The notes beneath the pieces were generated by a model. The model saw only the letters and a list, made by a program, of their open reading frames with translations. It was not told where the DNA came from and did no database searches. Positions 40,390-62,281 of a stretch of DNA of 64,000 nt are shown one piece after another. Position 1 is the first letter of the stretch. Each line of letters opens with the position of its first letter. A program made the translations under genes and the position numbers. The DNA is taken from positions 1 through 64,000 of the forward strand of contig JABURQ010000073.1 in NCBI GenBank assembly GCA_014762625.1, in the 5' to 3' direction. This DNA is from Planctomycetaceae bacterium. GTDB lineage: Bacteria; Planctomycetota; Planctomycetia; Planctomycetales; Planctomycetaceae.

Positions 40390-42147
40390 ATGAAGCACTC
40401 GCTCGTTCTTCTCTGCGCATTTCTTATCTCCTCATTCGCGGGATTTCTAACCGCCGAACCTCCTAATGTCATCGTATTTCTGACCGACGACCAGGGCTGG
40501 GGGGACTTGTCATTGAATGGCAACGAAAACCTTTCTACGCCGCATATCGACGCTCTCGCCCGGGAGGGAGCGTCCTTCGACCGGTTTTACGTCTGTCCGG
40601 TCTGCTCCCCGACGCGAGCCGAATTCCTCACCGGACGATATCATCCACGCGGCGGTGTGAAGGGAGTGAGTACCGGAGAAGAGCGGCTGGACCTGGACGA
40701 AGTCACCATCGCCGACACATTCAAACAGGCAGGATACGCCACCGCCGCCTTCGGAAAATGGCACAACGGCACGCAATACCCCTATCATCCCCGCGCCCGT
40801 GGTTTCGATGAATACTACGGTATGACGTCCGGTCACTGGGGACATTACTTTTCGCCGATTCTCGACCACAACGGTAGGATCGTGCGGGGCAAGGGTTACG
40901 TGATCAACGATTTAACCGATCATGCGCTCGACTTTATTGAAAAGAATCACGAACATCCCTTCTTCTGCTATCTGCCGTATAACACTCCTCACTCACCGTT
41001 CCAGGTGCCGGATGAGGATTACCGGAAATTCGCCGATGCCCCGATCGAGATGCGAAACCGGGATCCCGAGAAGGAGGAAATTGATAAGACACGCGCCGCA
41101 CTCGCGATGTGCGAGAACATCGATCACAACGTCGGTCGTATCCTGAACAAACTCGACGAGCTTCAACTCACCGAAAACACCATCGTCGTCTACTTCACCG
41201 ACAACGGTCCGAATACCTGGCGATGGAACGGCGGAATGAAGGGTAAGAAAGGGGCGACCGATGAGGGAGGCGTCCGGGTGCCGTGCCTGATTCGCTGGCC
41301 GGGTCAGATTCCCGCGGGAATCAAAATTCCACAGATTGCAGCGGCCATCGACCTGTTACCGACCTTGACGGACCTGGCCGGAATTGAGCCGGTCGGTCGG
41401 AAACCTCTGGACGGGAAAAGTCTCAAGCCGTTGTTGACCGCGACGGCCGAAAAGTGGCCGGAGCGAATGATTTTCTCCAAATGGCAAAAGAAAGTGAGTG
41501 TGCGAACGCAACGTTACCGACTCGATCACACCGGTAAATTATTCGACATGATCGATGATCCCGGACAACATACCGACATCAGCAATCAATTGCCGGAGGT
41601 CGCCAAACTCTTACGCGCGGAGGTAGGTCGCTGGAAAGCGGAAATGAACGCCGAACTCTCCGCCGATCACCGCCCCTTGACGCTGGGCTACGCGACCGCT
41701 CCCGAAACTCAACTTCCGGCGCGAGACGGTGATTATTCCGGCCACGTCGCCCGCAGCGGTCGCGCCCCGAACTGTTCCTTCTTCACAAACTGGACTTCGA
41801 CCGAAGATCGGATCTGGTGGGACGTCGATGTTCTGGAACCGGGAACTTACGACGTGCTTATGATGTCGACTTGCGAAGCGCAAAACGTCGGAGCGAGATT
41901 CGAGTTAAGCCTCGGAGAGGCGAACCTCACCGCAACCGCGGAAGAAACCCACGACCCTCCTTTGCATGGAGCTGAAGCGGATCGGGCCAATCGCGGAAGC
42001 GAATCGTACGTGAAAGACTTTAAGGAATGGAAGCTGGGACAGATGACATTAACTCCCGGTGAAGGACGTCTTTCACTGAGAGCGTTGGAGATCCCAGGTC
42101 GGGGAGTGGTCGATGTGCGGATGTTGATCTTTCGACGCACCGAATAG
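40390..42147 (+). CDS. Exported sulfatase (FGly-type)
   Basis: 585 residues with a signal peptide (LLCAFLISSFAGFLTA). Family features are NVIVFLTDDQGWGDLS with the metal Asp pair, the formylglycine site CSPTR with Cys72, GKWHNG and FTDNGP. The Cys must be oxidised to formylglycine by a maturase that is not in this window. From about residue 440 on there is an extra beta-rich domain (TNWTSTEDRIWWDVDVLEPG), probably a carbohydrate-binding type. It likely removes sulfate from polysaccharides outside the cytoplasm. It follows the enolase gene by 37 bases. Confidence 0.95.
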   Translation: MKHSLVLLCAFLISSFAGFLTAEPPNVIVFLTDDQGWGDLSLNGNENLSTPHIDALAREGASFDRFYVCPVCSPTRAEFLTGRYHPRGGVKGVSTGEERLDLDEVTIADTFKQAGYATAAFGKWHNGTQYPYHPRARGFDEYYGMTSGHWGHYFSPILDHNGRIVRGKGYVINDLTDHALDFIEKNHEHPFFCYLPYNTPHSPFQVPDEDYRKFADAPIEMRNRDPEKEEIDKTRAALAMCENIDHNVGRILNKLDELQLTENTIVVYFTDNGPNTWRWNGGMKGKKGATDEGGVRVPCLIRWPGQIPAGIKIPQIAAAIDLLPTLTDLAGIEPVGRKPLDGKSLKPLLTATAEKWPERMIFSKWQKKVSVRTQRYRLDHTGKLFDMIDDPGQHTDISNQLPEVAKLLRAEVGRWKAEMNAELSADHRPLTLGYATAPETQLPARDGDYSGHVARSGRAPNCSFFTNWTSTEDRIWWDVDVLEPGTYDVLMMSTCEAQNVGARFELSLGEANLTATAEETHDPPLHGAEADRANRGSESYVKDFKEWKLGQMTLTPGEGRLSLRALEIPGRGVVDVRMLIFRRTE

Positions 42148-42153
42148 CGAGAC

Positions 42154-42903
42154 TCAACGAATCGTCGCCAGTTTCATTTCGATCAGCTCCAGACACAGAT
42201 CGATCAATTCCTCTCGTGATATTTTGAACGACATCGCAACTTGAAGCTCTTCCAGTGTCACTGCGCCTCGTTCGTGCAGCACATCGACCATTTCCAGGCC
42301 GTCCTCTTCGAGTAACGCCGTCCGGATATCATTTTTGACCGGATAAAACTGGACCACCGCCGGGACATCCGCATTATCCCCCAGCAGAGCGGCGGTGTGG
42401 AACGTGGTGCGTACGCAAATTGGATTGACCTGTATTTTCAGGTGTTCATTATCGCCGAACTCTGCCGCCAGCTTCTCTGAGACAGTCAATTGTCCCTGAA
42501 AAGCGACGTGCGTCAACCGGTTCTCCCGGGCGACCTCTTCGATTTGGTGACGAGCCTGCTGACAGCGAATAACGTCTTGCTGTTCTGCGGTTAGTTCAAC
42601 CTGTTCGGGAAGCCAGTTGAGAAATCGTTCGCCGTCCGAAATACCGGTATCGTACGCCAGTAACGGCACAGTCTTCACGTATTGGACAATCAGGTTTTCG
42701 AATTGGTCTTCATCGAAGAACTCAGCGACGAATTCGATCTGATCTTTCACCTTGTTGAATCGCTTGTCGAGATTTCCGTCGGTGAACATCTTCAGCATCT
42801 CGGCGGTATTGCCGTTTTTCAGATCCCCCACCACGTTGTCATTGCGCGCGATGGAAAGCGATTCCGCGTATTTGTCGAGCTGTTGACGATAAGCGTCTGA
42901 CAT
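42154..42903 (-). CDS. Putative partner protein of the MNIO oxidase
   Basis: 249 residues. The N-terminal half is helical and lightly resembles DUF2063/MbnC-type partners (DQFENLIVQYVKTVPLLAYD, ISDGERFLNWLPEQ); the C-terminal part ends in a winged-helix-like segment (ERGAVTLEELQVAMSFK). No enzyme motif is visible. Its ATG is only 20 bases from the MNIO stop and the two genes run in one direction, the usual layout of MNIO-partner pairs in which the partner delivers a peptide substrate. The family match is weak, so the assignment rests mainly on context. Confidence 0.6.
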   Translation of the reverse strand: MSDAYRQQLDKYAESLSIARNDNVVGDLKNGNTAEMLKMFTDGNLDKRFNKVKDQIEFVAEFFDEDQFENLIVQYVKTVPLLAYDTGISDGERFLNWLPEQVELTAEQQDVIRCQQARHQIEEVARENRLTHVAFQGQLTVSEKLAAEFGDNEHLKIQVNPICVRTTFHTAALLGDNADVPAVVQFYPVKNDIRTALLEEDGLEMVDVLHERGAVTLEELQVAMSFKISREELIDLCLELIEMKLATIR

Positions 42904-42923
42904 GATTCACTCCGAGCCTACTT

Positions 42924-43754
42924 CTAAGTCGAGACGGCGTAAACCTCTTCCATGATCTCGCGGACTCGTCGCACTTCGTTGCGCCAACCCGCTTCGTCCG
43001 GAAACTCCTGATCGCGTTCGATAAACACCGCGTTGACTTTCCCTGTTCCCTGTTCCAGAGAAAATCGGTAGAGATCGAAAACATCTTCGGGAATCGGGTG
43101 GGAATGACTGTCGATATATTTTTCGACTTTCTCGTCATAAACACCGCCCGCTAGATGCATTTGCACTGCGTTCGCGTGAGACATCACCTCGGCGATGAAC
43201 TCGTAAGCGTCGTAACCAAAGTTGACCGAGTTGGCATAAACGTTCGTCACATCGAGCAACCAACCGCTTCCCGAACGTTTCAGAGTTTCCGTGAGAAACT
43301 CCTGTTCGCTCATTTCTCCCTCGAACTGGAACAGATAAGCGATATTTTCAAGATAAAATCGACGATCACCGAAGTAGTTCTGAATGACGTCCAGATTCCG
43401 GACAGTCGCTTCCAGCGCTTCTCGCGTATAGGGAGGAGGGGCGAAGTGACCCATCTCGACTCCCTCGTGCGCGTTCCGGGTAAAGCCGAGGTGATCGCTG
43501 ATCGAGTCGGCTCCGTTTTCGTCGGCGATCTCTTTCAGCGCCTGCATGTATTTTTCACCCGGAGGGTCGGCCGAGGCGACGGAGAGCTTGAGCGCGTGGA
43601 TGCTGACGTGATCGAATTCGAGGTCCTGTAGATATCTCTCCACGCGCAGTGGATCGTCGGCGCGTTCGAAGGTAATCTCGCAGCCGTTAATCGCGGGATC
43701 GGTCAATATAGGCCGATTCTGTTCGCGAAGTGCATATCCGATGGTTGGTAACAT
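42924..43754 (-). CDS. MNIO-family (DUF692) multinuclear iron oxidase
   Basis: 276 residues from ATG 43754, which follows GAGGAG at seven bases; a longer in-frame reading to 44048 runs through a terminator and is not used. The TIM-barrel shows the DUF692 series: start LPTIGYALREQN, SDHLGFTRN, ENIAYLF, DVTNVYANSVNFGYDAYEF, MHLAGG, DSHSHPIPEDVFDLY and the final IERDQEFP, giving the His/Glu/Asp set that binds two or three irons. Known members (MbnB, TglH, ChrH, bufferin enzymes) modify cysteines of peptides. The adjacent downstream gene may be the partner. HLAGG replaces the usual HLAGH. No peptide substrate gene is seen nearby. Confidence 0.88.
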   Translation of the reverse strand: MLPTIGYALREQNRPILTDPAINGCEITFERADDPLRVERYLQDLEFDHVSIHALKLSVASADPPGEKYMQALKEIADENGADSISDHLGFTRNAHEGVEMGHFAPPPYTREALEATVRNLDVIQNYFGDRRFYLENIAYLFQFEGEMSEQEFLTETLKRSGSGWLLDVTNVYANSVNFGYDAYEFIAEVMSHANAVQMHLAGGVYDEKVEKYIDSHSHPIPEDVFDLYRFSLEQGTGKVNAVFIERDQEFPDEAGWRNEVRRVREIMEEVYAVST

Positions 43755-44098
43755 TCCCGCTCCTCTACTCCAAAATTCCCTGGAAAGTGAAGATGCTGTT
43801 TTGCCTATTAGGGCATCCGATTTTGCGGATCGATCGGACAGAGAACTTACTACCTTTTTGTCGAGAAGTGGGCCATTGCCCATAAAAAACCCCGGCAAGC
43901 CGGGGTAAGAGCTTGTCTTCGCTTTCGCTTTTCGAGGCGAGAATGAGCGAGCTGCTGCCCGATTGAGGCGGTCGAAGCAGCCGAATCCCCAAGATTCGGC
44001 GATGCAGATCAACGACGAGCGGGTGACAGACTCGCCATTCGTCGCCAAAATGGAATTTGAAGACTGGCTCTACAGGGAAATGATAACAGCAGCCGGAA
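43755..44098. other. Intergenic region between MNIO and pilT
   Basis: A 344-base gap holding the pilT terminator (43884-43905) and the presumed promoter of the MNIO gene; GAGGAG lies just ahead of ATG 43754. No gene is supported in it: an open frame crosses it on the minus strand, continuous with the MNIO gene, but its extra residues look unlike protein. No precursor-peptide gene with Cys-rich content was found. Confidence 0.5.
43884..43905 (-). terminator. Rho-independent terminator of pilT
   Basis: Seven-base stem CCCCGGC / GCCGGGG (43890-43896 with 43899-43905), two-base loop as drawn, and an A-run on the plus strand (U-tract on the minus strand). It lies about 190 bases beyond the pilT stop and upstream of the MNIO start. 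Confidence 0.8.
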
Positions 44099-47662: not shown

Positions 47663-49030
47663 TTACCCGGTCGCGACGTTCCCTAACAATAATATTGCCA
47701 CGGAATAGTAAATTACGACGCCTAAAATATCGACCAGTGCGGCGATCAACGGATTCGACATCAACGCCGGATCCATTCCGAATTTACGGAACAGCATCGG
47801 CAACATCGCTCCACTGCAAGTTCCCAGGGTGACCACCATGGCCACGGTTAATCCAACCACAGCCCCTTCCGTCTTTCCGACGAACATCCAGCCGAACGTG
47901 AAACCGATGAGGGCCAGAAAGGATCCCAGCGTCAGCCCCAGAATCAGTTCGCGAGTGGCCAACCGAAGATGGGGAGAGCGCGTTTGCTGATCGTCAACCG
48001 CCAGAAATCGGATGATCAATGTGGCCGATTGTGAACCCGCGTTTCCGCCACTCGCCAAAACCAGCGGAAGAAATAGAATCATCCAGGTATACGTTTCTGA
48101 AACAGACTCGTATTGACGCAGCATGGCAGCGGTGGCAACGGCTGCTGAAGACAGAATCACCAGCCAGATACCGCGTTTATGCAATAACGTGAACAGCGGA
48201 GTATCGAGGTAGCTATCTTCGAGCGGTGCCACCGCACCGGCGAGATGAGCATCCTCGGTCGCTTCTTCCTCCAGCACATCCATCGCGTCGTCGTGCGTGA
48301 CAATCCCAACCAGACGGTTCTGATTATCAACCACCGGAATCGCGATAAAGTTGTACTTCTGCAATTCCCCTGCCACGAATTCCTGGTCGTCATCGACCCG
48401 GACCGAGATCACGTCTCGCTTCATCAAATCGGTAAGCACAGTTTCCGGTTTGGCGAGAATCAAATCACGGAGCGAAACAAACCCGAGCAGATGCCGACCG
48501 TCGTCTATGATGTAAACATAATAAATCGTTTCGCGATCGGGGGCCTGCTTGCGAAGTCGTTCCAGTGCTTCCCGCACCGTAATCTGTTCCGGCAGGAGCG
48601 CATATTCGGTCGTCATGATTGCGCCGGCGGATTCTTCCGGGAACGAAAGCAATTTACGGATATCGTTCCGCTCAGCCTGAGCGATTAGAGGCAGCAGAGC
48701 TTCCACCTGGTCGTCGCTGAGTCGGGAGAGCAAATCGACCCGGTCGTCGGACGACATCTCCTCCAGCCAGCGCGTCAAACGTTTCCGATTATTTCGTTCC
48801 AGGTCCTCCACAAGTGCGATCTGCACAGAAAGCGGCAGGAACTCAAGGATCTCGACCTGCTTGCGCAGATTACACGCATCGAGTACATCAAGGATCTCCG
48901 AGTTTTCCAGCCCCTCGAGAACTTCCGCCGAAACCGCCGGGTGCAACACATCACAGAATTCGGACATGCCGTCCCGGTCTGCTTCCCCAAGCATCTGCTG
49001 GAGATCAGGTTTCAATAGTGAGTGATACAT
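47663..49030 (-). CDS. mgtE: MgtE-type magnesium transporter
   Basis: 455 residues from ATG 49030, with AGGAG eight bases ahead. The domain order is that of MgtE: N-terminal superhelical domain (about 1-130), two CBS modules (about 135-255, with AGAIMTTEYALL and IPVVDNQNRLVGIVTHDDA), a plug helix and five membrane helices with LASGGNAGSQSATLIIRFLA and the late ALVDILGVVIYYSVA. CBS domains sense cytosolic Mg2+ and gate the channel. It probably shares a transcript with the lyase gene downstream. Confidence 0.95.
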   Translation of the reverse strand: MYHSLLKPDLQQMLGEADRDGMSEFCDVLHPAVSAEVLEGLENSEILDVLDACNLRKQVEILEFLPLSVQIALVEDLERNNRKRLTRWLEEMSSDDRVDLLSRLSDDQVEALLPLIAQAERNDIRKLLSFPEESAGAIMTTEYALLPEQITVREALERLRKQAPDRETIYYVYIIDDGRHLLGFVSLRDLILAKPETVLTDLMKRDVISVRVDDDQEFVAGELQKYNFIAIPVVDNQNRLVGIVTHDDAMDVLEEEATEDAHLAGAVAPLEDSYLDTPLFTLLHKRGIWLVILSSAAVATAAMLRQYESVSETYTWMILFLPLVLASGGNAGSQSATLIIRFLAVDDQQTRSPHLRLATRELILGLTLGSFLALIGFTFGWMFVGKTEGAVVGLTVAMVVTLGTCSGAMLPMLFRKFGMDPALMSNPLIAALVDILGVVIYYSVAILLLGNVATG

Positions 49031-56531: not shown

Positions 56532-59453
56532 TCACGGATGCCTCAGGAGTCTCGGCTCCCCCTCCACCACAGTGAGATGCTGATTGGCACCAACTTTCCC
56601 AAAGGTCGAGGTTTCTCCATGCGGCCATGTTATTTTGATCTCATCAACCTGTTCTGCATCAGCCAGCCCGAAGAATAAACGCTTCTCGTTGTTGCACTGA
56701 TAGCCGTCTCCCGTCGTCAGTTGCTGCGTCTGTTGTCGTCCGCCCGCGTCAATGGTGACCCGCGTTCCCACGGCATCGCGCGAACCGTTCACGCCAACGA
56801 GACGTAAAGTGATCCACCGGTGTTCCGTTTCCGTTCGGTTCTCGGCGAGTTGTGTGGGGGAATCGAGGGCCGAGGCGACAAAGTCCGGTTTTCCGTCCCG
56901 ATTCCAGTCGAGCCGAGCCAGAGAACGACCAATGAATTTTTGTTCGAAGAACGCTCCGGATTCCGATCCGGGCTGTTCGACAAACGCCTCTCCCTGCTGA
57001 TTCCTCAATAACAGCGGCGGCATACGCTCATCGCGTCCTTCCATAAACGAAAAATCGTCGATATCCCCATTCAACACCACCAGATCGGGCCAGCCATCCA
57101 GATCAGCATCCAGGAATTGAGTGCCGAATCCCAACAGCTCATAACCCGGATCGCGAAGTGAATACTCGTCGGTTTGATCGAGAAACAGATGCGGCTGTTG
57201 TTGTCGGTAGAGAGTGTTTGATTCCTGATAGAAATTCGTGACGAACAAATCGAGGATGCCGTTACCGTCCACATCCCCCGCCGCAATCCCCATGCAGGCT
57301 TCCGCCCGACCGTTCGAATTCATCGCGGCTCCGGAAAGCAAAGCGGTCTCTTCCAGCTTGAGAGTCTCATCTGACTGATTGACCCAGTAGTGATTCGCGA
57401 CGGCGTCATTTGCGACAAAAATATCGGGCCGCGAGTCACCATCGAAATCTGCAACCAGCACCCCCAAACCGTTTCCTTGCGCCTGATTCAATCCGCTGGA
57501 GTTGGTTTCGTCCGAAAACCGACCCGCTCCCCGGTTCTTCCAGACCCGATCTTGTGCTGGAGAGAACACGACCGGCGTGCAGACGCGGGCAATCCCCTGC
57601 ACGTAGCAGGTCTGCGTCAGAAGATTCTCACCCGTCAGATAATCGACGTCATACAGTTCCGGTAAACCGTCTCCATTGAGATCAGCGATGGCGCAGCTGG
57701 TGGTCCAGGATTCTCCCTCGATTCCCGCGGACTCAGTGATGTCTGTGAAAGTACCATCGCCGTTATTCCGCCACAGTTGATTCCGCCCAAAATTCCCCAC
57801 GTAGATATCGGGGAAACCGTCATTGTCGATGTCTCCGATGGCCACTCCCTGTCCGAACCCGAATCCGGCAATACCCGCCGGCTCTGTGATGTTCTGGTAA
57901 CGGGTCCCGCCCGAGTTTCGATAGAGTTGATCGCTACGATTCGGTTGGGGATCGTGAGGGCCCTTCTCGAGTCCCTGCGCCAGATAAAGATCGGGCCAAC
58001 CGTCCAGGTCATAATCGAGAATGCCGACTCCTCCTCCCGTATATTCGTAGATCGCGCGTCCTTCCGTCGCAGGATCGCCCCCATTCACATATTCGAATTG
58101 CAATCCCCTCTCCGCGGCGACATCTTCGAACCGGATCGCGACCGCCTCGTTCTGTGATGGTCGCTCGTCTCGCAAAGTCTTGGGCATCACGTCCAGTTCG
58201 TCCCACTCTGGATCGCGTAGTGTGGAAAGATCGATGTTGGCTGCCGGTCCCGCAGGAAACTCAATCGAGGGAGAGGATGGCAACTGCTCCAATTTGGCCA
58301 TCAGACTGGTGAGTGAATTCGGTTCAATCTGACGCCCCATATACACCCACGCACGAGCCTCATTCACGCGTCTGAGTTTCAACAATTGCTCGGCAATTTT
58401 CGTGATGCCTGGAATATCGGGCGTCTCTTTGTTAATTCCCTTCGACAAGGCTTCCAAATGAGAAAGATCGCTTGCCCACTGCGAGCAGACTTGAGACTCA
58501 GAGTCTCTACCGAGTTCTCGTAACATTTGTCCCAGTTGAAAATGAGAGGCAATATGGTCGGGGGCAATTTTAGCCGCCTCCCAGTAACATCGCGCAGCCT
58601 CCGCAGTCATTCCCGAACGACGACAAAGGTCGCCTTTTAACTGCCAGTAGCCGGGCAATCGATCCGCCCCGGCGGTTTCAGCCGCGAGCAACTTCCTGAC
58701 TGTTTGCCCTTCACGAAGTTCGACCGCCATCTCCAAGGACTTCACCCAGGCGACGGCTAAGTCGCCCTGAGATTGAAGTGCCGACTGGAAATGTTTCAGA
58801 GCGGCATCGGGGCGACTCGCATCCTGATCGATCAAGCCGGCGGCCATTTGAACTAACGGGTCTTCCGGAGCGTTTGCCAAACCTGTTTCGACCAAGGCGT
58901 CATTGCGGCGGTGTGTCGACGTGTCGCACAACAACAATAACAATTCAGGATCCACTCGCCCTTCCTTGACCAGGGCCAGGATGTGAGGCAGCGATTCACG
59001 AATTAAACCGGTGACATTCAGAAGAAAGACCAACTGTCGACGAGCACCTGAACGGGAAGCATCATCGGTGAGAATCGTCTCATACAGTTTTTTTGCAGTC
59101 TTCAACTGCCCCAGTTGCAATAACGCCTCTGCCCGAAAAATGCGAGCCAGCCGAGCGGTGTCCGAAGTCGCGTCTTCAATTTCGTTAAGATACGACAATG
59201 CAGCCGCGAAATCCCCTTTTGCCCGATTGATATTAGCGACGAACAGCCACAGTTCGTTCGGCACATCCCACAGCTTCAGCAAAGGTTGGATTGTTTGTTC
59301 GGCTCCATCCAGATCGCCTGTCTCCACCATACTCGCCGCCTCGGCGAGCAAAGCCTCCTGATCGAGAAACATTCCCGATTTAGATGCGTAATACCAGAGA
59401 CCGAGGAACACCAACAGGACCGGAACGCCGAATTTCAGAAGTATCGTCTTCAC
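56532..59453 (-). CDS. TPR + VCBS/ASPIC (CRTAC1-like) membrane-anchored protein
   Basis: 973 residues from GTG 59453, which overlaps the stop of the upstream gene in a GTGA. The N-terminal helix (FGVPVLLVFLGLWYYASKS) serves as signal anchor. TPR repeats fill residues about 30-430, followed by seven or so VCBS calcium loops (DYDLDGWPDLYL, DIDNDGFPDIYV, DLNGDGLPELYD, DVDGNGILDLFV, DADLDGWPDLVV) and a C-terminal ASPIC/UnbV domain with ITWPHGETSTF. It is the same architecture as the protein at 24977-27913, including the phrase ACMGIA and TNFY-x3-NTLY. Function is unknown; the upstream gene is a lone ABC membrane domain. Confidence 0.88.
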   Translation of the reverse strand: MKTILLKFGVPVLLVFLGLWYYASKSGMFLDQEALLAEAASMVETGDLDGAEQTIQPLLKLWDVPNELWLFVANINRAKGDFAAALSYLNEIEDATSDTARLARIFRAEALLQLGQLKTAKKLYETILTDDASRSGARRQLVFLLNVTGLIRESLPHILALVKEGRVDPELLLLLCDTSTHRRNDALVETGLANAPEDPLVQMAAGLIDQDASRPDAALKHFQSALQSQGDLAVAWVKSLEMAVELREGQTVRKLLAAETAGADRLPGYWQLKGDLCRRSGMTAEAARCYWEAAKIAPDHIASHFQLGQMLRELGRDSESQVCSQWASDLSHLEALSKGINKETPDIPGITKIAEQLLKLRRVNEARAWVYMGRQIEPNSLTSLMAKLEQLPSSPSIEFPAGPAANIDLSTLRDPEWDELDVMPKTLRDERPSQNEAVAIRFEDVAAERGLQFEYVNGGDPATEGRAIYEYTGGGVGILDYDLDGWPDLYLAQGLEKGPHDPQPNRSDQLYRNSGGTRYQNITEPAGIAGFGFGQGVAIGDIDNDGFPDIYVGNFGRNQLWRNNGDGTFTDITESAGIEGESWTTSCAIADLNGDGLPELYDVDYLTGENLLTQTCYVQGIARVCTPVVFSPAQDRVWKNRGAGRFSDETNSSGLNQAQGNGLGVLVADFDGDSRPDIFVANDAVANHYWVNQSDETLKLEETALLSGAAMNSNGRAEACMGIAAGDVDGNGILDLFVTNFYQESNTLYRQQQPHLFLDQTDEYSLRDPGYELLGFGTQFLDADLDGWPDLVVLNGDIDDFSFMEGRDERMPPLLLRNQQGEAFVEQPGSESGAFFEQKFIGRSLARLDWNRDGKPDFVASALDSPTQLAENRTETEHRWITLRLVGVNGSRDAVGTRVTIDAGGRQQTQQLTTGDGYQCNNEKRLFFGLADAEQVDEIKITWPHGETSTFGKVGANQHLTVVEGEPRLLRHP

Positions 59454-60388
59454 GGTTCCTGCCCTCGGCCTGGTTTTTCCATTTGTCTCCGACCGGTCCG
59501 TTTCCCGATATCTTTCAAACGGCTCATCTGCTCCACCAGTCGCGGTACGGTATCCATTCCCATCATAAACATCAGCACGTAGCGAAACACAGCGAAGATG
59601 TCTCCCGCCTCGGGAGTCCCCGACGAACAGAATCGAACCAAGCAGGCAATCATCACCCCCAGAATGAATAACTCCATCAGGCTGAAATTGATCGCTTCCG
59701 CGTCCGAGAGACGAATTCGCCAACCGGCGGCTTTGTCGAAATGGTCTCGAACATCGGCATCGCCCCCCTCTCGAATGATGTCAACCTCATGCTCCAGTTG
59801 ATCGTGTAACCCGGTACTGAGCTGCAGGGTCCTGAGGGAGTAAAATCGGTTGAGGATCAGCGCCGGAACGATCAGTCCTCCGCAATACGCAATCAGCCAC
59901 GGATCGTAGAGCCCCAGCATCAATAATGCCCCCACAATCGAGTAACCGCTACGAATGATCATGGGGACGTAACGTTCGAAGAACTCGACATATTCCCGTG
60001 ACATCGCCGATCGGGCCGCGATTCGAGAGACGGCTTCCTGCTGTGCTTTCTGGTCGGTAATGACATTTGTCGCCAGTTCGGAATAGATCGACGTAAAAGC
60101 CCGCGTGTCGTACATTTTTCGCAAGGTACCGATCAGCATATGAGAAAGATGCTGAGCCACCAGAATCCAGACTCCCGTCCAGCGATCGTGCAGGAGATCG
60201 TTGATCGCCCAACCCAACGCCGCAGGCTGAGCCAATCGCAGCAGGTTTTCGATATTAAACAGCGTGTAAGTGAGCAGCATCTTGCCGCGATGTCGGCGAA
60301 AGAGCCCTTTAAGCGTGATCGAAGCAGTCGCCGTCCCGGTCATCGGTGGAAACGAGGACTCCGGTTGCTGTTCGGACGGCTGGGACAT
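59450..60388 (-). CDS. Lone six-TM ABC transporter membrane domain
   Basis: 312 residues with the six helices of an ABC exporter membrane domain (FNIENLLRLAQPAALGWAIN is the start of the domain; AISRIAARSAMSREYVEFFERY-type loop follows). It matches the short ABC_membrane_3-like group that lacks any nucleotide-binding domain; none is fused and none is encoded nearby. The Arg/Gly-rich C-terminus is short. It probably works with a separate ATPase or has lost transport. Its stop overlaps the GTG of the CRTAC1-like gene by four bases, so the two are translationally coupled. Confidence 0.8.
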   Translation of the reverse strand: MSQPSEQQPESSFPPMTGTATASITLKGLFRRHRGKMLLTYTLFNIENLLRLAQPAALGWAINDLLHDRWTGVWILVAQHLSHMLIGTLRKMYDTRAFTSIYSELATNVITDQKAQQEAVSRIAARSAMSREYVEFFERYVPMIIRSGYSIVGALLMLGLYDPWLIAYCGGLIVPALILNRFYSLRTLQLSTGLHDQLEHEVDIIREGGDADVRDHFDKAAGWRIRLSDAEAINFSLMELFILGVMIACLVRFCSSGTPEAGDIFAVFRYVLMFMMGMDTVPRLVEQMSRLKDIGKRTGRRQMEKPGRGQEP

Positions 60389-60556
60389 GCTGTTTTCTAT
60401 CGTTCGACGTTAACAATCGCCCCCTGAGGGACTTACGAATGACCGTTTCCGCGGATTTGGCTATGATTCCAGCGGAGTTTGACTATGATGGACAGAGTTA
60501 ACAACTCCTGCCGCAGGCAGAACCTCCCAGAGTAAGCCACCCGAGACCCGACCTCA

Positions 60557-60904
60557 ATGACCGAGACGTTTATCCTGATTCCCGGACGGACCAGCAAACA
60601 GGGCACCACCCTGAACGAAGGCAAATACACCGAGGGCTATCAAACTGAAATCAATACCCTCAAAATGAATCCCGACGACATGGAGCGTCTCGGGATTGCT
60701 GAGGGGGAAGATGTCCGGATGTGGAACGAGTATGGCTCGGTCGTCGTCCCCTGTTCCACCGGCAAGGACGAACTGCCACCCGGTCTCCTTTTCATCAGCT
60801 ACGGCGACAAGTCATCGCAGCTGATGCCGGGGGAGACTCACGGTAGCGGCATGCCGGACAGCAAAGGCCTCGACGTCCAAATCCAAAAAATCAGTAACAA
60901 CTAA
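60557..60904 (+). CDS. fwdD: Formylmethanofuran dehydrogenase subunit D-like (MPT-dinucleotide binding)
   Basis: 115 residues. It has the fold of the C-terminal molybdopterin dinucleotide-binding domain: R-T-x-x-Q-G start (GRTSKQGTTLNEGKYTEGYQ), LGIAEGEDVRMWNEYGSVVV, LPPGLLFISYGDKSSQLMP and SGMPDSKGLDVQI. In archaea FwdD supplies the pterin-binding half for FwdB. The next gene is the FwdB homologue, 30 bases on, so the pair should form the oxidoreductase core that interconverts formylmethanofuran and CO2. Subunits A and C are not in the window. Confidence 0.85.
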   Translation: MTETFILIPGRTSKQGTTLNEGKYTEGYQTEINTLKMNPDDMERLGIAEGEDVRMWNEYGSVVVPCSTGKDELPPGLLFISYGDKSSQLMPGETHGSGMPDSKGLDVQIQKISNN

Positions 60905-60934
60905 GTTCTAGTTTCCTACTGCTAGTCACGACCT

Positions 60935-62281
60935 ATGAGTATCGCCGAACAACCAACCAACGAAACCGAGAATCCTCTCAAAATCGTCGAAGACGCGACC
61001 TGCACTTTTTGCGGCTGTGTCTGTGACGATATCAACCTGACGGTCGAAGGGGATCAAATCACCAAGGCACAAAACGCCTGCGTCCTCGGAAAGGCGTGGT
61101 TCTTCAATCACCACATTGAAGAACGTCCCGAGGCCCTCATCGACGGTCAACCCGCCACCTACGAACAGGCGATCGACCGAGCTGCCGAGATCCTGCTGGA
61201 GTCCCAATACCCGATCACCTACGGACTCTCGGACACCACCTGCGAAGCACAGCGCGTCGCGGTTGCCATCACCGACTGGATCGGCGGCTGCCTCGACACC
61301 ACAACTTCTGTCTGCCACGGACCGTCCGGCATGGCGTTTCAGGGGGTCGGCGAAGTGACCTGTTCCTTGGGGGAACTCAAAAACCGAGCTGACTATCTCA
61401 TCTATTGGGGCGGCAACCCCGCGGAGTCGCACCCGCGACACTTCACCAAATACAGCCTGATGCCCAAAGGGGAATTCGTCCCCAAAGGTCGTAAGGACCG
61501 GACTGCCGTTCTCGTCGATGTCCGTAAAACGAAAACCGCCAAAGCGGTCGATATCCATCTGCAACTCAAACCCCGTTCCGATTTTGAACTCGCGTGGGCA
61601 CTCCGTGCACTCGCCAAAGGAATCGAACTCGACGACTCCGTCGAAGAGAAAACCGGCATCCCGCTGGAACAACTTAAAGAAGTCATGGACGGCATGAAAA
61701 AGGCCAAGTTCGGCGCCATCCTGTTCGGGATGGGGGTCACGATGACCCGCGGCAAACACATCAACAGCGAAGCCGTCCTTGCCCTGGCTCGGGATATGAA
61801 CGAGCACACCCGCTGGGTCGCCAAGCCGATGCGCGGACACGGCAACGTCACCGGAGCCGATAATGTCGTCTCCTGGTCGACCGGCTATCCTTTCGGGATT
61901 CATCTGGGGCGCGGCTATCCACGATTCAATCCGGGCGAGTTCACCAGTTCCGACGTCCTCGGACGCGGCGAAGCGGATGCGGCCCTCATCATTGCTTCGG
62001 ATCCGTATTCGAACTTCAGCCAACCGGCCCGCGATCATCTGAAAGCGATCAACACCATCGTCCTCGATCCAAAGCTCTCGGAGACTGCCAAAATCGCCAA
62101 GGTCGCCTTTACCACCGCGACCTACGGCATCAACGTGCCGGGCACAGTCTACCGGATGGACGATATTCCGATCCCACTCCGACCAGCGTTCGACTCCCCC
62201 TACCGCAGCGATTACGAAATCCTGAAGGCGATTGAAGGCAAAATCCGCGAACGCCAGCTCGCCGCCGTTAACGCAGGATGA
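60935..62281 (+). CDS. fwdB: Formylmethanofuran dehydrogenase subunit B-like
   Basis: 448 residues. The N-terminus has a full 4Fe-4S set for molybdopterin oxidoreductases, Cys23, 26, 30 and 49 (CTFCGCVCDD ... NAC), and the metal ligand Cys127 in the SVCHGPSG motif. Further landmarks are WGGNPAESHPRHF, DVRKTKTA and ASDPYSNFS. FhcB of aerobic methylotrophs is known to have lost the metal site, whereas this protein keeps all of it and travels with a D subunit, so it may be redox-active. The gene is followed by a tRNA-Pro gene. No signal peptide is seen. Confidence 0.87.
   Translation: MSIAEQPTNETENPLKIVEDATCTFCGCVCDDINLTVEGDQITKAQNACVLGKAWFFNHHIEERPEALIDGQPATYEQAIDRAAEILLESQYPITYGLSDTTCEAQRVAVAITDWIGGCLDTTTSVCHGPSGMAFQGVGEVTCSLGELKNRADYLIYWGGNPAESHPRHFTKYSLMPKGEFVPKGRKDRTAVLVDVRKTKTAKAVDIHLQLKPRSDFELAWALRALAKGIELDDSVEEKTGIPLEQLKEVMDGMKKAKFGAILFGMGVTMTRGKHINSEAVLALARDMNEHTRWVAKPMRGHGNVTGADNVVSWSTGYPFGIHLGRGYPRFNPGEFTSSDVLGRGEADAALIIASDPYSNFSQPARDHLKAINTIVLDPKLSETAKIAKVAFTTATYGINVPGTVYRMDDIPIPLRPAFDSPYRSDYEILKAIEGKIRERQLAAVNAG

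Follow-up and report, generated by a model that had tools for sequence, protein, structure and literature searches.

A planctomycete MNIO and its partner as candidate modifiers of a Cys/Arg-repeat peptide encoded on another contig

An MNIO gene and its partner gene in a Planctomycetaceae genome very probably encode the modifying enzyme in a RiPP system with scattered genes, for which a 42-aa peptide encoded on contig C177 would be the precursor. The pair lies in the window (the whole stretch of 64,000 nucleotides analyzed here) and most likely acts on this remotely encoded peptide, which belongs to the same genome but to another contig. An earlier note on this DNA had described the pair as an orphan with no visible substrate, which is true of its immediate surroundings only. 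The features discussed below are as follows.

42924..43754 (-): MNIO (DUF692, MbnB_TglH_ChrH) oxidase, 276 aa, PF05114
42154..42903 (-): PME-type 2 partner, 249 aa, with a helical DUF2063-like domain and a C-terminal RRE-like winged helix (predicted fold)
43889..43906 (-): terminator-like hairpin, ACCCCGGCTTGCCGGGGT + TTTTTATGGG, between the upstream PilT-like gene and the MNIO gene
59450..60388 (-): ABC transporter six-TM protein without ATPase domain, 312 aa, displaced third cluster gene (PF13748, 2.1e-49)
G000:C177:3713-3841 (-), outside the window on another contig: candidate precursor peptide, 42 aa, MKTQTAQKKSVRELKNLRTEAAGKKAADKHRCCRCCRCCRCW

The oxidase, its partner and their surroundings

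The window MNIO matches PF05114 over its TIM-barrel domain (residues 6-268; E=1.5e-54, 185.5 bits, cut-off 25). Its nine metal-site residues (H53, H88, E136, D168, N171, H200, D215, H217, and E246) are invariant in an alignment of 40 sequences, comprising the window MNIO and 39 planctomycete orthologs (58-91% identity) from one scan of public genomes. Metal-site positions agree with those of MbnB, TglH-like, and bufferin enzymes, with the exception of T170: this position is Thr throughout the window MNIO's branch, N in bufferin/HvfB-type enzymes, H in TglH, and S in MbnB. By alignment offset, the counterpart of T170 in HvfB is probably N175; mutating this site-3 ligand abolishes HvfB activity (PMC13419390).

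In a maximum-likelihood DUF692 tree, an analysis that the earlier note had called for, the window MNIO's branch stands apart from MbnB, bufferin, TglH-like, TIGR04222-linked, and verrucomicrobial MNIOs with support of 100/100, as the note's suggestion of a new branch anticipated. The branch separating the group has a length of 2.9; a truncated Nonomuraea row, which had disturbed the 59-row tree, was left out, and deeper relationships are unsure because some reference rows have long branches. Membership in a characterized clade was also ruled out by the NCBIfam equivalog cut-offs, every one of which the window MNIO misses by a wide margin. The HLAGG motif, once thought to set this oxidase apart, is no such mark: it also occurs in TglH (PDB 8hci; B. 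stagnalis TglH-like enzyme) and in an MNIO adjoining a TIGR04222 protein, the bufferin/oxazolin form being HLAGH.

Two members of the window MNIO's branch, at L043:9017-9847 (-) and L044:9099-9956 (-), are 46% and 38% identical to the window MNIO, group inside its branch in the tree, and have neither a partner nor a recognized precursor. They carry K/S or C/R for D215/H217 and T/A for N171, and the L044 enzyme additionally lacks H88, E136, and H200; both are likely decayed or repurposed. At L047:8744-10713 (-), a planctomycete MNIO with HFVGG sits beside a membrane protein that looks TIGR04222-like by eye and has a Gly/Cys-rich tail at its end; this is another candidate type of MNIO substrate.

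The partner gene starts 20 bp downstream of the MNIO gene on the same strand, and a partner directly follows the MNIO in 38/39 planctomycete orthologous loci, in keeping with the earlier reading of the pair as a two-gene unit. No Pfam or NCBIfam model matches the window partner. When an AlphaFold2 model built from an alignment of 32 relatives (pLDDT 93.8) was compared using VIA-align, TglI was the best match (8hci_A; Z 14.2 over 223 residues, with TglI matches at 14.2 and 14.1), followed by NGO1945 (3dee; Z 13.2 over 190 residues) and then by a match at 8.5. From Z 8.5 down, many RiPP enzymes and RRE domains match the C-terminal third of the model, among them TbtB, MibB, MccB, TbiB1, PbtF, and cyanobactin heterocyclases. 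Foldseek E-values were weak (best 5.9e-3), and the top two families were exactly the known MNIO partners. The earlier description of this protein as weakly DUF2063/MbnC-like thus holds for the predicted fold but finds no counterpart in Pfam or NCBIfam.

According to Antoine et al. (PMC12452194), PME-type 2 partners combine DUF2063-like helices with an RRE-type domain, have no Pfam signature, and accompany precursors without Sec signal peptides. The window partner likewise sits right after the MNIO, lacks the DUF2063 Pfam signature, and has a predicted fold related to NGO1945 and TglI; going by this model, it is a PME-type 2 helper whose C-terminal end is RRE-like.

The hairpin at 43906-43889 lies between the MNIO-partner unit and the PilT-like gene upstream, and a sulfatase gene at 40390-42147 converges on the pair from the other side. 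A consensus scan upstream of the MNIO gene, on its strand, found no sigma-70-like site, only the terminator-like hairpin, and did not confirm the likely promoter proposed earlier for the pair. The precursor-family HMM described below detected nothing significant in the 14 kb around the pair, in agreement with the earlier observation that no peptide gene lies beside it. A CCRCC pattern at 47791-47805 was rejected as a precursor: it is a chance match, as the motif has no more genome-wide hits than a backwards control.

A candidate precursor family, its remote member and a third gene

Clustering of ORFs at the 39 planctomycete loci revealed two further conserved genes besides those for the MNIO and partner. 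The first is an ORF of ~43 aa, which at most loci precedes the MNIO gene by ~100-500 bp and shares its strand. A precursor-like ORF in this orientation was found at 34/39 loci, 30 by HMM (E 1e-5 to 1e-22, versus a best E=0.19 in a reversed-sequence control) and 4 by inspection; at L080 and L082, the precursor is 1-1.7 kb away from the MNIO. Upstream of the MNIO is the usual position of MNIO precursors (PMC12452194). No Pfam or NCBIfam model covers the family.

These peptides share a Lys/Arg-rich leader containing ..K.VREL..LRT.., followed by a C-terminal Cys/Arg core that is usually (R)CCRCCRCCR. What the cores have in common is repetition of a Cys-and-Arg unit, in most cases CCR; variants were recognized by inspection at L078 (CRRGCSRGCNRGC..), L079 (CRSCRSC..), L083 (CRGCRRCRSC..), and L081 (LERCGR repeats). 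Cores vary among the early branches (CRRG, CRS, LERCGR, CHGCH) and could therefore undergo different chemistry. L055 carries three tandem precursor genes upstream of the MNIO (relative -1432 to -309), with near-identical leaders and the ends CCRCCRCWF / CCRCCRCFFN. The variant precursor with CRRGCSRGCNRGC repeats at L078 (Gemmata sp. IIL30; relative -353 to -138) also matches TIGR04117, a radical-SAM Cys-repeat target family, at E=3e-5, below cut-off. Across 17 precursor leaders, the 15-residue hydropathy maximum ranges from -0.94 to 0.06, versus 1.51 in the bufferin-like precursor of the window's genome; judged by hydropathy, the precursor has no Sec signal peptide. A leader plus variable core, genetically linked to the MNIO in these 34 relatives and remote in the window's genome, is a mark of a RiPP precursor.

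A search of the window's own genome with a distant relative's single peptide as query returned one strong match, G000:C177:3722-3838 (-) (E=2.4e-10), and the precursor profile recovered the same C177 peptide (E=7e-20), bearing out the earlier suggestion of a remote peptide. The earlier note would have abandoned the orphan reading if the pair fell into a characterized MNIO clade with its precursor elsewhere in the genome: the precursor is indeed elsewhere, but the clade is not a characterized one. The C177 peptide consists of the leader KKSVRELKNLRTEAAGKKAADKH and the C-terminal core RCCRCCRCCRCW. Its start is preceded by a conserved, ribosome-binding-like CTCAGGGAG, and its gene has a fructose-bisphosphatase gene on one side and Fic and histidine-kinase genes on the other. 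Both congeners of the window's genome also have the gene, differing from the window's by 18 synonymous and 4-5 non-synonymous codons, and the flanks diverge; within the 12 core codons, comparison of the congeners yields 2-4 synonymous changes and no non-synonymous ones. These codon counts indicate purifying selection on the core of the peptide. In G308 (locus L051), from another genus, two precursor genes also lie on contigs other than that of the MNIO.

The window's genome contains a second MNIO, on contig C181, within a bufferin-like system (L045:9051-11414) composed of a signal-peptide Cys-rich precursor, an HLAGH-type MNIO, and a DUF2063 partner. Since this enzyme has its own precursor and partner, it has no need for the C177 peptide and was ruled out as the peptide's owner.

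The second additional gene, conserved after the partner at 24/39 loci, encodes a ~300-aa PF13748 protein. The six-TM protein of the window is 57% identical (E=5.4e-106) to the product of the gene right after the partner in relatives and is encoded ~16 kb from the MNIO; the distance is 17-18 kb in both congeners, whose six-TM ABC proteins are 81-82% identical. Because both the peptide and six-TM genes are displaced from the pair, the four-gene cluster is in three pieces in the window's genus. On Cronobacter and Pantoea plasmids, PF13748 (ABC_membrane_3) adjoins a TetR regulator with no MNIO and was therefore set aside as a clue to function, since it says only "transport-like" and provides no specific evidence. 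Within the window (56532-62281), the six-TM gene is flanked by a TPR/FG-GAP/ASPIC protein gene and a divergent molybdopterin-oxidoreductase-like gene, by eye of the formylmethanofuran dehydrogenase type.

Co-occurrence was examined in 170 genomes of the family and 392 genomes drawn across the phylum. Within the family, the precursor was present in 28/31 genomes with the window MNIO's branch versus 2/139 without it (Fisher 2e-26), or 13/16 versus 0/42 by genus (Fisher 2e-10); these Fisher values overstate independence because the genomes are related, which does not weaken the pattern itself. The six-TM ABC protein followed the same distribution (27/31 versus 1/139). Phylum-wide, the precursor occurred in 4/4 genomes with the window MNIO's branch (>400 bits) and in 0/388 others, 87 of which have some other MNIO match. 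In three of the family's branch-carrying genomes the HMM detected no precursor: a contig edge truncates G017, and the cores are variant in G033 and probably also in G467. Conversely, G496 and G497 contain the peptide with no detected MNIO.

Proposed mechanism and rival explanations

In the proposed system, the partner would use its RRE-like winged helix to bind the C177 leader, probably via VREL..LRT, and would present the peptide core to the MNIO, whose mixed-valent iron cluster would use O2 to oxidize one or more Cys. As in MbnBC, TglHI, and HvfBC (PMC13419390, PMC12452194), the Cys thiolate of the substrate would be held on one iron and O2 activated at the other. The six-TM ABC protein (59450-60388) would then probably move the product across the membrane, whether by export or import. 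By analogy, the modification likely falls on Cys, the residue altered in most known MNIO substrates and kept in every core variant. The product may be a thiooxazole, an oxazolone-thioamide, or something new, and the density of Cys makes a metal-binding role plausible.

Alternatively, the MNIO may modify the peptide at Arg or at a C-terminal aromatic residue, with Cys serving another purpose. Cys and Arg alternate along the core, whose last residue is often W or F, and MNIOs acting on non-Cys residues exist (PMC12257519, PMC13174530), for example on Phe in a biphenomycin-like pathway. However, Cys and Arg are common to all core variants, many of which lack a C-terminal aromatic (GGR and GR ends), and Cys is the modified residue in most known MNIO substrates (PMC12452194); we therefore regard modification away from Cys as unlikely. 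A more distant alternative is that the substrate of the pair is a host protein or other peptide, and that the C177 peptide is a stand-alone Cys-rich metal-binder that merely co-occurs; Cys/Arg-rich short ORFs could have another role, e.g., as metallothioneins. The location of the peptide on another contig in the window's genome and the two family genomes that have the peptide and no detected MNIO would fit this explanation, but it is very unlikely given the placement of the peptide upstream of the MNIO in 34/39 relatives (the usual place of MNIO precursors; PMC12452194), the phylum-wide co-occurrence, and the leader/core architecture together with an RRE-like partner.

The broken gene order in the window's genus could also mark a relict system whose scattered genes no longer cooperate. 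We consider this extremely improbable: three congeners have all four parts intact or present, purifying selection acts on the core of the peptide, the MNIO retains every ligand, and the congener ABC proteins remain 81-82% identical, whereas the truly decayed branch members at L043 and L044 look different, having lost ligands and partner.

With enzymatic action on the C177 peptide as the preferred reading, we lean toward an undescribed planctomycete RiPP family with (CCR)n cores and a polycationic, densely modified, possibly metal-binding product that is moved by the stand-alone six-TM protein, with the precursor supplied in trans from a remote locus in two or more genera. An apparently substrate-less MNIO thus becomes a testable enzyme-substrate pair, and MNIO precursors can be missed if searches are limited to neighboring ORFs. 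The precursor family adds an unusual repeat core without a Pfam or NCBIfam model, a new link between MNIOs and a transporter is suggested, and planctomycetes, whose RiPPs are little known, gain a defined candidate product.

Comparison with known systems

Systems combining an MNIO with a PME-type 2 partner are already known, while the (CCR)n precursor, the leader motif, and the PF13748 link appear to be undescribed: the searchable literature held no description of CCRCC motifs, planctomycete MNIOs, or the PF13748 link, and an unnamed mention of the (CCR)n family in the supplements of PMC12452194 or in subscription papers is possible. The Adjamnio families with PME-type 2 partners are similar in having candidate signal-peptide-less Cys precursors beside the MNIO and partner, but none in the main text of PMC12452194 has the (CCR)n core, PF13748 gene, or planctomycete distribution found here.

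Bufferin/oxazolin systems (BufABC, HvfABC) resemble this one in their precursor-MNIO-partner order (seen here in relatives), their Cys-rich precursor, and their helper with DUF2063-like and RRE-like domains. However, bufferin precursors carry signal peptides (DUF2282 or Buf2), whereas the precursor here has none and is a 42-aa leader-plus-(CCR)n-core peptide. Neither precursor nor partner has a Pfam match, the window partner lacks the DUF2063 signature, and the window MNIO has HLAGG rather than HLAGH, scores 153.9 bits against a BufB cut-off of 310, and branches apart.

Methanobactin MbnABC shares a very short Cys precursor without signal peptide and an MNIO with a partner. It differs in that the window MNIO scores 39.7 bits against the MbnB (TIGR04159) cut-off of 325, MbnC matches the window partner at only Z 4.7, and the core sequence is unlike that of methanobactin.

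TglHI, of the 3-thia-amino acid/pearlin pathway, has a C-terminal Cys added enzymatically to its substrate (PMC12452194), whereas the substrate here would be a gene-encoded Cys array, and the window MNIO is only distantly related to TglH (E=9e-11), on a long separate branch. Nevertheless, TglHI shares HLAGG and a PME-type 2 partner with the window pair, and TglI provides the closest fold to the window partner (Z 14.2).
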